Of a stretch of 64,000 nucleotides of DNA, positions 30,500 through 33,844 are shown piece after piece. The notes below the pieces were generated by a model, which was not told the origin of the DNA, did no database searches, and saw only the letters and a program-made list of their open reading frames with translations. Within the stretch, counting starts at the first letter, position 1. Each line of letters begins with the position of its first letter. The position numbers and the translations under genes are program-made. The DNA is from Saprospira sp. CCB-QB6 (GTDB lineage Bacteria; Bacteroidota; Bacteroidia; Chitinophagales; Saprospiraceae): assembly GCF_028464065.1 (NCBI RefSeq), contig NZ_CP116808.1, forward strand, positions 3,935,501 to 3,999,500, written 5' to 3'.

Positions 30500-33400
30500 A
30501 TGAGTTCAGAAACTTATTTGTATTTTCGGCCAAATGAATCACTGAATATGCAGAAAGTACAACTTGCTTTTCCGATTGTAGAGCTTTATTTGGCTGGGCA
30601 GGCCAGTCCTATTAGAATTCCTTTGGCCGAACAGGATTATTTGTCTTTGGAGCGGGAGGAAGAATTGCGTCATCGTTTTCAGCAGCGTTTTCAGGAGGCT
30701 GTGATGAAAGAGGGCGAGTATCTTTTTATGGCGGATTATGAGTTGCCGCAGGATTTTGAGTTGGCGGAAACTCGCTTATATTTTGACCATCCGAGTTTTG
30801 AAGAGCGTTTGGATTTGCAGGGATTTTATTTGCGTTTGCCTTATTTGCGTAGGGAGCAGGAACAGGGGTATTGGTTGATGTTGCCACAATTGGGTTTGGA
30901 AGGTTTTGCGGCCAAAGAAGAAGATATTCCGCAGCAGCTCAAGCAATTGGTTGAGATTGATGTGCTTCGGGCGGGGAGGTTGGAATATGTGCAGGGGTTG
31001 ATGCCTCTTTTTTGGACTGAAAATATGAGTTTAAAAAAGGGGCATGTTCAACTAGAAGCTTATAATCTCAAGGAATTGAATGCCTTGAAGGAAAAGAATG
31101 AAAATAGCCTTTTGCCTTCAGCGGCTACGCCTTTGCTTAAGGCAAAAAAGCAGCAGCTTTGGGGGCATGAAGAGGCTTTGCAGGAGCTTTTGCAATTGTT
31201 GCAACAAGAAGGGCAGTCGATTCTTATTGTAGGGCCTTCGGGGGTAGGGAAATCTACGCTTTTGCTGGAAGCTATGCGTAAAAGAAAGAGTAAAAAGCCG
31301 CAGATTTGGAAGACTACAGCGGCTCGGCTCATTAAGGAACTGAGTGGAGAGACGGGTTGGCAAGAAAAGCTACACCTACTTGTTCAGGAATTGCGACAGT
31401 TGAAGGAAGTGCTTTATGTAGAGCATTTACTTTCCTTGTTTGAGGTTGGGCAATATTCGGGCAGTGATTTGAGCATGGCGGAGCAGTTGCGTCAGCATTT
31501 GGATCGGGGAGAAATCCGTATGATTGCCGAATGTACGGCAGAGGAGTTGGCCTTAATTGAGAGTCGGAGTCCGTCTTTTTTACAACATTTTCAGCGTTTG
31601 GAGCTGGTTGCGCCCAAAGGGCAGCAACTGCTAGAGATCGTGGAGGGCAAGTTGCAGCAGCGAGCCAAGAGTATGGGGGTGAAAATTGATTCGGAGGCTA
31701 TTGCTGAAGGTTTGCGTTTACAGTTGCGCTATCAGCCGTATTCTGGTTTCCCGGCCAGAAGCATTCGATTTATGGAAGGTATTTTACAACAGCATAAAGA
31801 AGAAGCTGGGAAAATTAGCCGAACTCAGGTGGTACAAGCTTTCTGTCAGGAGAGTAATATGCCAGCCTTTATGGTTGATCCAGAGATCAAACTTGATCCT
31901 TTTGCCTTAGAACAATTTTTTAGACGACAGCTTTTTGGGCAGGATGCGGCAGTAGAGAGTCTGAGAGATGTATTGGCTTTAGTGAAAACGGGCTTAAATC
32001 GTCCAGAAAAACCCATTGCTTCTTTGTTGTTTGCGGGCCCAACGGGAGTGGGGAAAACGGAATTGGCGAAGCTCTTGGCGGAATACATGTTTGGGAGTCG
32101 GGAGCGAATGATTCGTTTTGATATGAGTGAGTTCTCTTCGCCTTATGATGTCATGCGATTGATTGGAACCGATTTTAATTCTGATGGGCTACTTAGTTCG
32201 GCGGTTCGTCGTGAACCCTTTTCGGTTCTTCTTTTTGATGAGTTAGAGAAAGCGCATCCCTCTTTTAATGATTTATTGCTACAGATTTTGGGCGAGGGGC
32301 GCTTGAGTGATAGCCGAGGGCAATTGGTCAACTTTTGTAGCTGCATCATTATTATGACCTCTAATGTGGGCGCAGCCAATTTGCAAAACAAGCGAATTGG
32401 TTGGGCCGATAGCTTGTCTAATCTGGAGCTACAACAACATTTTGAGCAAGAATTGCAGAAATTCTTTCGACCAGAGATATACAATCGCCTCGATCGCATT
32501 TTGCCCTTTCAGCCTTTGGGGCAAGAATTGATGTTGCAGTTGGTGGAAAGAGAGTTGGGCTTATTTAAAGAACGGGAGGGGCTGAAACGTCGCCCGATTG
32601 AACTCAATTGTTCGATGGCCCTCAAGATGCGATTGGCACAGGAAGGCTATCAGCCAAAATATGGAGCGCGGGCTTTACAGCGGGCTATGCGTTCTTTGTT
32701 ATACTTGCCTTTGGCGGAAGAGTTGAATAAATATGGACCCGATGATCGCTTAGACGTTTTGGCTGATTATGATCCTAAGGAACAAGCGGTCGTTTTTCAG
32801 TTAAGGGCTCAAAGCCAGGAATTTACAGCCTTAATTGAGCAGCTGAGTCAAGGACAATATATGGACTTTGCCAGTGAACTTCGCTATGATTTTCATCTAC
32901 TCAAAGAGGGACAATTTTATATTCAGTTGCAAACACAGCTTGAACAAATCCGTAGGGAACAGGCTGAGCAAGAGCATGCTGGAGCTGCTCGCTTCCTCAA
33001 TAGAGGAAGTAAACTTTTGGCAGAAATTCAACAAAAAGGAGAAGAGATTGATGCGTTGGAAACCGAGATGGCGCTTTGTAGTCTAGGCTATAGAGATTTT
33101 AATCGTCAACGACATCAGGCTCTGAAAGATTGGGAGAAAGAATTTTTTGCGGCCAAATTGTCGCTTTATCGCTTAATGGATAATCAAGCCGATGACTTAG
33201 AATTACATATTTATAGTGATCCAGAAGCCTTTACCGATCTTCGGATTCCACAATTTATTGCTCAGGCTTGTCAAGAGGAAGGTTTCCTATTAAGCCTAAC
33301 AGCCATTTTGGCCCCCAAACAATTAGAGAAGTTTGTGGAAGAGGTTTGGCTCGATGAAATGAGCTACCAAGCCCTAGACGAAGGTAAATTACTAGAGGAA

Positions 33401-33844
33401 AAAGAAGAAAACGGACAGCGTTATTATAAAGTGGGCCGTAGCCAATATCAATACATAGAACAGCCCATTCAACAACTCGAAGAATTGGCCCATCTAGATC
33501 ATTTAGGCCGCTTGTTTGCCTTGCGTCTACATATTGAAGGTCCTGGCGCCCGACTATTTTTTGCGCATGAATACGGCTTGCATGCCCTAGAGTATGATTT
33601 AGATAAATTCTATTACTATTATTTAGTGCAAGGAGATGAGCAAAATGAACTGCCCGAAGAACTACACCGAATGAAGGTCCGATCACTTAGCAGAAGCCCC
33701 AAACGCAAATATCGCCTGCAACGCATCGAGGATAGCGAGTTCCAACTCTCTAAACAAGAAGTCCCCAAAGAACAATACTTTCAGCAACTATATAGCATCT
33801 GGAAGCAGCTCTTTAGGGACCATATTGAGGCTTTGGTGCAGTAG
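30500..33844 (+). CDS. ClpA/ClpB-like AAA+ protein with release-factor-like C-terminus
   Basis: The 1114-residue protein has five parts. Residues 1-200: a domain without known motif, in place of the Clp N-domain. Residues 215-430: a first AAA+ module with intact Walker A (GPSGVGKS, 245-252) but a damaged Walker B (YVEHL, Glu308-His309 in place of DE) and no arginine finger. Residues 485-780: a second, intact ClpB-type module with GPTGVGKT (513-520), LLFDELEKAHP (Asp580-Glu581), sensor MTSNVGA and the Clp C-terminal helices (KYGARALQRAM). Residues about 800-890: coiled. Residues about 890-1045: a stretch whose order (LELHIYSDPEAF, FIAQACQEEGFLLSL, HIEGPGARLFFAHEYGLHAL) resembles the PCRF/core part of class I release factors, without GGQ. 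It may link unfolding to ribosomes or tRNA; that is inference. An A/G-rich AAGGAAGGGG precedes ATG 30500. Confidence 0.85.
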   Translation: MSSETYLYFRPNESLNMQKVQLAFPIVELYLAGQASPIRIPLAEQDYLSLEREEELRHRFQQRFQEAVMKEGEYLFMADYELPQDFELAETRLYFDHPSFEERLDLQGFYLRLPYLRREQEQGYWLMLPQLGLEGFAAKEEDIPQQLKQLVEIDVLRAGRLEYVQGLMPLFWTENMSLKKGHVQLEAYNLKELNALKEKNENSLLPSAATPLLKAKKQQLWGHEEALQELLQLLQQEGQSILIVGPSGVGKSTLLLEAMRKRKSKKPQIWKTTAARLIKELSGETGWQEKLHLLVQELRQLKEVLYVEHLLSLFEVGQYSGSDLSMAEQLRQHLDRGEIRMIAECTAEELALIESRSPSFLQHFQRLELVAPKGQQLLEIVEGKLQQRAKSMGVKIDSEAIAEGLRLQLRYQPYSGFPARSIRFMEGILQQHKEEAGKISRTQVVQAFCQESNMPAFMVDPEIKLDPFALEQFFRRQLFGQDAAVESLRDVLALVKTGLNRPEKPIASLLFAGPTGVGKTELAKLLAEYMFGSRERMIRFDMSEFSSPYDVMRLIGTDFNSDGLLSSAVRREPFSVLLFDELEKAHPSFNDLLLQILGEGRLSDSRGQLVNFCSCIIIMTSNVGAANLQNKRIGWADSLSNLELQQHFEQELQKFFRPEIYNRLDRILPFQPLGQELMLQLVERELGLFKEREGLKRRPIELNCSMALKMRLAQEGYQPKYGARALQRAMRSLLYLPLAEELNKYGPDDRLDVLADYDPKEQAVVFQLRAQSQEFTALIEQLSQGQYMDFASELRYDFHLLKEGQFYIQLQTQLEQIRREQAEQEHAGAARFLNRGSKLLAEIQQKGEEIDALETEMALCSLGYRDFNRQRHQALKDWEKEFFAAKLSLYRLMDNQADDLELHIYSDPEAFTDLRIPQFIAQACQEEGFLLSLTAILAPKQLEKFVEEVWLDEMSYQALDEGKLLEEKEENGQRYYKVGRSQYQYIEQPIQQLEELAHLDHLGRLFALRLHIEGPGARLFFAHEYGLHALEYDLDKFYYYYLVQGDEQNELPEELHRMKVRSLSRSPKRKYRLQRIEDSEFQLSKQEVPKEQYFQQLYSIWKQLFRDHIEALVQ

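Follow-up and report, generated by a model that had tools for sequence, protein, structure and literature searches.

Can a release factor (RF) that has lost its catalytic domain, and is carried by a Clp-like motor, still find the ribosome? The question is posed by one gene in the window, the 64,000-nucleotide stretch of the Saprospira sp. CCB-QB6 genome analysed here, whose product combines an AAA+ motor with an RF-like tail (Table 1). A sequence-only reading had recognized three RF-like motifs within residues ~885-1045, had noted that the GGQ loop was missing, and had proposed that the protein could act on stalled ribosomes or peptidyl-tRNA. All three motifs were located in frame, and no GGQ occurs anywhere in the protein. 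We refer to this protein and its relatives as family A and to its paralogues as families B and C.

Table 1. Features of the family A gene, in positions of the window
Feature	Residues	Nucleotides	Strand	Basis or remark
Whole frame, family A, ClpA-like motor and RF-like tail	1-1114	30500..33844	+	1114 aa, intact
N-terminal domain	~1-214	30500..31141	+	model, mean pLDDT 41
AAA+ D1	~216-430	31145..31789	+	motor motif alignment
AAA+ D2 and small domain	~468-745	31901..32734	+	Pfam, motif alignment
Long helices in the place of RF helical domain 1	~788-893	32861..33178	+	model
RF domain 2-like (PCRF-like) part, holding the three motifs	~897-1043	33188..33628	+	profile and model
Motif 1, ELHIYSDPEAF	901-911	33200-33232	+	read in frame
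Motif 2, FIAQACQEEGFLLSL	919-933	33254-33298	+	read in frame
Motif 3, HIEGPGARLFFAHEYGLHAL	1011-1030	33530-33589	+	read in frame
Short stretch in the presumed place of the RF-inserted GGQ domain	~1044-1066	33629..33697	+	family B excision test
RF domain 4-like part	~1067-1114	33698..33841	+	A-B alignment in the same register

The motor, first read as ClpB-type, is a ClpA-like double AAA+ module. Residues 194-742 matched TIGR02639 ClpA (NCBIfam, E = 5e-89), and Pfam AAA_2 and ClpB_D2-small were also matched; the scores lay far below the NCBIfam cut-offs for both the ClpA equivalog (299.4 against 993.15 bits) and ClpB (272.8 against 1232.1). We aligned the motors of 16 A proteins (including 15 of the 58 others extracted), 13 B proteins (L003 of the same genome and 12 more), one C protein, and two Clp-type proteins from the same genome. 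A and C retain the Walker A motif of D1 (residues 241-252 in the window protein), which in most B is changed beyond the lysine. The D1 Walker B motif is degenerate in the window protein (VLYVEH, residues 304-309) and lacks its glutamate in every aligned row of A, B, and C. Walker A, Walker B, sensor 1, the arginine finger, and sensor 2 of D2 are all kept in the three families, while the D2 stretch with the GYVG pore loop is shortened in every one of their rows. The motor is therefore not an unfoldase of the standard threading type. An IGF-like loop ([ILV]G[FWY]), which would suggest ClpP docking, was found by eye at the expected place in 9/16 A, 11/13 B, and 1/1 C. The strands and following helix of the poorly modelled N-terminal domain recall what we take to be a HicB-like layout.

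Searches with the tail as a single sequence gave little. Residues 746-1114, scanned alone, matched no Pfam or NCBIfam family, and their one match in PADLOC was to an AAA family (E = 0.015). A plain PCRF profile search of the protein, proposed as a check in the sequence-only reading, was negative: PCRF was not detected in the tail, and a PCRF search of the genome at an E-value of 1 did not find the protein. PDB sequence searches with one tail and with the A1 and A4 family profiles returned a single match each (E = 1.3, 0.4, and 0.24), none of them an RF.

Family profiles gave more. Profile A1 (25 rows) consisted of the window protein and 24 of 29 fetched A loci, with L009, L010, L015, L020, and L033 removed as duplicates or near-duplicates; profile A4 for family B (28 rows) of L003 and 27 of 30 B loci, leaving out L147 and L149 (near-duplicates) and L161; and RF alignment A2 of 26 of 31 RF loci, leaving out L047, L057, L059, L061, and L064. 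Family A matched RF2 (hhalign P = 1.8e-4, probability 49) and RF1+RF2 (P = 0.0014); B matched RF1+RF2 (P = 0.0012) and RF2 (P = 8.8e-4). The A and B tails matched each other weakly and in the same register (P = 0.0019, 90 columns). The hhalign match of family A to RF2 falls exactly on motif 3, placing that resemblance beyond chance, whereas motifs 1 and 2 lie outside any significant family A match and their positions are aligned to RFs only in family B.

We evaluated these scores against several controls. The best of 60 column-shuffled decoys per RF profile reached 25.2 for A1 (true scores 33.5 and 38.4) and 30.3 for B (33.4 and 33.4). The reversed RF1+RF2 profile scored 33.5 against B, equal to the true 33.4, so that this control does not clear B alone. 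Together with E-values that are weak everywhere, it is what one would expect if the tail were a helical hairpin and a ferredoxin-like domain unrelated to RFs, resembling them by chance or convergence. We consider such an origin improbable, because the same RF stretch is matched by two separately built families and no decoy family scores near it: among 49 real decoy families made from neighbouring genes, the highest scores were 27.3 with A and 23.1 with B, below RF1/RF2 for both. The family-level similarity of A and B to RF1/RF2 is weak, yet above all 49 real decoys. Pfam PCRF was matched by 4 of the 28 B rows (best E = 0.0082), more than any other Pfam family there, and by 1 of the 25 A rows (E = 0.11). 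Unrelated Pfam families scored equally well or better in single rows (VRP1 in B, E = 0.0054; DPCD in A, E = 0.00072), so single-row E-values alone prove little.

By consensus, the B tails are more RF-like than those of A. Two parts of the B consensus show this: IxAEGHxLYxLLxGExGIHLFY is similar to the region of RFs around ExGxH, and VIRIYDGxxTLTDLRTGFSN is similar to KIRTYNYPQNRVTDHRIN of RF domain 4. In patterns written after the alignments had been seen, GxGxxE, ExGxH, and RxY...DxR followed one another in this order in 26/26 RFs, 16/28 B, 0/25 A, and 0/829 neighbouring frames, and the domain 4 motif occurred in 25/26 RFs, 28/28 B, and 0/829 neighbouring frames. A second motif pattern (20/28 B, 1/25 A) was set aside since its spacing gave 0/26 RFs. 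In the RF domain 4-like part of family A, R1069 and D1078 are invariant (25/25 rows of A1). GGQ letters were present in none of the 28 B tails and in 3 of 58 A tails, there at other, unconserved places. PxT and SPF are the codon-reading motifs of RFs; neither was seen in the alignments. In RFs, GxGxxE, the first of the three motifs, sits at the end of the helix by which the first base of the stop codon is read, so that B would be more likely than A to bind the codon site, with A as its partner.

These counts also bear on a second reading, in which an RF-descended tail has left the ribosome and works instead within the AAA+ complex, as an adaptor for assembly or for substrates that might, for instance, pair A with B. 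The loss of the three-motif order in A alongside its retention in just over half of B, and the lack of codon-reading motifs in the alignments, are what it would lead one to expect. It is tentative, to the same degree as the explanation favoured below; against it, the RF signal in both tails and a domain 4-like motif shared by every B row suggest a constraint that is still RF-like.

We then asked what had become of the catalytic domain. Section 2.4 of PMC6514570 describes the hydrolase domain of bacterial RFs as an insertion within the domain that recognizes stop codons. We removed the GGQ-domain columns from the RF alignments and re-scored these against A and B. For B with RF1+RF2, this lifted the score from 33.4 to 40.7 (P = 6.8e-5) and extended the alignment from 62 to 110 columns, across the cut into domain 4. 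Control cuts of equal length, placed every 20 columns elsewhere, reached at most 35.8; cuts starting near the true position (247) gave 43.6 (start at 220) and 40.7 (start at 240). Against a five-row RF2 profile, B showed no rise on excision (33.4 to 33.3), and the rises for A were small (33.5 to 34.5 and 38.4 to 38.5). The catalytic domain therefore seems to have been excised, a reading supported by these profiles for B and extended by inference to A. The tail has thus probably retained RF domain 4 as well, with only the inserted GGQ domain missing, clearly so in B and by extension in A. A gain in score when exactly the inserted domain is cut out is also difficult to reconcile with a chance resemblance.

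A model of residues 746-1114, built from three near-identical sequences, was compared with known structures. Its mean pLDDT was 50, with blocks of 56-86 within model residues 151-280 and values below 50 in the domain 4 part. Model helices 43-78, 82-116, and 124-148, mostly with pLDDT below 60, occupy the place of RF domain 1, and the elements follow in the order of long helices, strand, helix, strands, and then a helix over GARLFFAHEYGLH. Foldseek against 350,542 PDB chains gave no match at E = 0.001 or better, and RF entries took ranks 1-7 with E-values of at least 0.046 (1rq0_A: probability 0.95, TM-score 0.27). A different fold for residues 850-1114, the outcome that was to speak against the sequence-only reading, thus did not appear, although the seven best PDB matches are of low confidence. 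In VIA-align, two matches to RF2 had Z = 7.6 (178 residues, rmsd 10.0) and Z = 7.5 (170 residues, rmsd 8.9), and ferredoxin-like ribosomal proteins of ~100 residues reached Z = 8.3, above RF2. The latter ranking favours an unrelated ferredoxin-like domain; the seven leading Foldseek ranks, all RF, count against it. We take the predicted structural likeness of the tail to RFs as support, not proof. Considering profiles, excision, and model together, the tail very probably derives from a class I release factor in which domains 1, 2, and 4 were retained and the GGQ domain was lost. The sequence-only reading is partly supported: its structural half holds in that the family profiles match RF1/RF2, while the function that it proposed, at stalled ribosomes or on peptidyl-tRNA, gained no direct support.

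To establish how widely the fusion occurs, we searched genomes of the same taxonomic family, treating the 248- and 150-genome samples of different searches as the same draws. With residues 779-1114 as the query, relatives were found in 116 of 398 genomes; with profile A1, family A was found in 93 of 248, some copies being weak or broken. Sixty A regions were fetched, two of which (L092 and L129) lacked an A member, and the 58 further members extracted were 1050-1175 residues long. Two named relatives come from Saprospira grandis strains, with 87 and 88% identity in the best segment. In phylum-wide samples, in which this taxonomic family was represented by few genomes, A (1 of 395) and B (1 of 198) were each found in the own genome only, and viral_contigs searched with profile A4 gave no relative. 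So far, the set of motor and RF-like tail has been seen only in this taxonomic family.

The own genome also encodes a family B protein of 1097 residues with the tail present (L003) and a family C protein of 763 residues that ends after the motor, without a tail (L002). Of the 248 genomes, 89 had family B; A was accompanied by B in 86, while 7 had A without B and 3 had B without A. Among 150 genomes, 57 had A, 55 had B, 55 had C, 51 had all three, and 60 had any of them. A, B, and C form a co-occurring set in which D1 is degenerate and D2 catalytically complete. Genomes with A are much larger than those without (p = 4e-6), so the co-occurrence in part reflects shared ancestry and greater genome size. 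Genus g22 has members with A, B, and C and one genome, G021, with none. In genus g67, A is interrupted by stops in G222, B carries one stop in G160, and a 99-residue frame is left in G067, as if the set were decaying together. Co-occurrence of A and B would likewise be expected of tails that pair the two proteins away from the ribosome.

How might such a set work? RFs occupy the ribosomal A site by means of domains 1, 2, and 4 and cut peptidyl-tRNA with the GGQ domain. With the A-site parts kept and the cutter gone, the ribosome is the most likely target. In the explanation that we favour, a class I RF would have lost its inserted peptidyl-hydrolase (GGQ) domain, keeping domain 1 and codon-recognition domains 2 and 4, and the slimmed module would have become fused behind a ClpA-like motor. 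The paralogues A and B, of the same layout, and C, with the motor only, may then assemble into a mixed AAA+ machine in which the empty RF modules would act as docking arms. An arm would dock at the ribosomal A site, the presumed target, and ATP hydrolysis in D2 would pull or pry a ligand or subunit off the ribosome. Taken as a whole, with an RF-derived tail, a mixed machine, and the ribosome as target, this explanation is tentative; its most specific form, in which a mixed A-B-C machine enters the A site with empty RF arms and remodels stalled or resting ribosomes by means of ATP, is more doubtful still.

Comparison with known systems places the protein between two of them. It shares with RF1/RF2 the profile match around G..A..L..E.G.H, the order of parts, and, in B, domain 4, and RF entries are the best fold matches of the predicted tail model; it differs in having no GGQ domain, no detectable PCRF, and a Clp-like motor in front. 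With ClpA/ClpB it shares two AAA+ domains, a D2-small domain, and the D2 catalytic residues, but it scores far under their cut-offs, and its degenerate D1 Walker B, shortened D2 pore loop, and RF-like tail set it apart. Since it fails defining tests of both, we assign it to neither and regard it as a new form made from both. Slimmed bacterial RFs such as ArfB and PrfH (RFH) are likewise RF-derived with fewer domains, and, as section 2.4 of PMC6514570 describes them, retain the peptidyl-hydrolase domain and lose others, whereas here the catalytic domain is the missing part. Vms1 with Cdc48, in eukaryotic ribosome quality control, also brings an RF-type protein together with an AAA+ motor, according to passages of PMC6514570, but Vms1 is of another RF superfamily (aeRF-1), is a protein separate from its motor, and is described as a peptidyl hydrolase. 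Titles and abstract openings of the open-access literature yielded no description of a release-factor module fused to a Clp motor. Here, in two co-occurring paralogues, the hydrolase seems to have been excised, while the parts for docking and codon reading were retained and coupled to an ATP motor. Arms that still dock would make this a ribosome factor driven by a motor; otherwise, a core protein of translation would have been put to an unusual new use. Were the mixed machine real, it would provide a motor-driven route of ribosome rescue or recycling of a kind that we did not find in the open-access literature.

Finally, we investigated the genomic surroundings. With the AAA family itself set aside, even the most widespread gene cluster was present in at most 15 of the 81 regions compared. 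The genes beside A (seven representatives scanned) look like housekeeping genes, and the neighbours name no pathway. No translation gene was found recurring beside A or B, which again suits a tail working away from the ribosome. Twelve of the 20 B regions L163-L182 contain a tandem CbxX-type AAA gene (for example L181:4964-7600) whose product has ~880 aa; it was dropped as a special partner, its N-terminal part being found in 142 of 150 genomes. The family C gene at L185:7759-10991 (763 aa) adjoins a gene for a MORN-repeat protein on the same strand.

Among 15 genomes with A, 10 gave a match to a phage-type sheath, compared with 2 among 20 genomes lacking A (Fisher p = 0.0009); the sheath family cut-off was passed in just 3 of the 35, and the own genome has a sheath locus as well. 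Whatever the ancestry of the tail, A, B, and C could on this basis serve a contractile injection apparatus, as ClpV does in type VI secretion. We regard this as very improbable: the larger size of A-positive genomes confounds the association, few genomes reach the sheath cut-off, and the sheath gene of the own genome is far away from A, B, and C. The type VI sheath VipB (PF05943) was found in 0 of 150 genomes, with the E. coli control detected, which argues against a role like that of ClpV (TssH). The own-genome locus itself, L184 (C1:1222000-1241900), resembles a contractile injection system, with a Phage_sheath_1C sheath protein, a Phage_base_V spike-like protein, and further frames sized like tube, baseplate, and PAAR-like parts.
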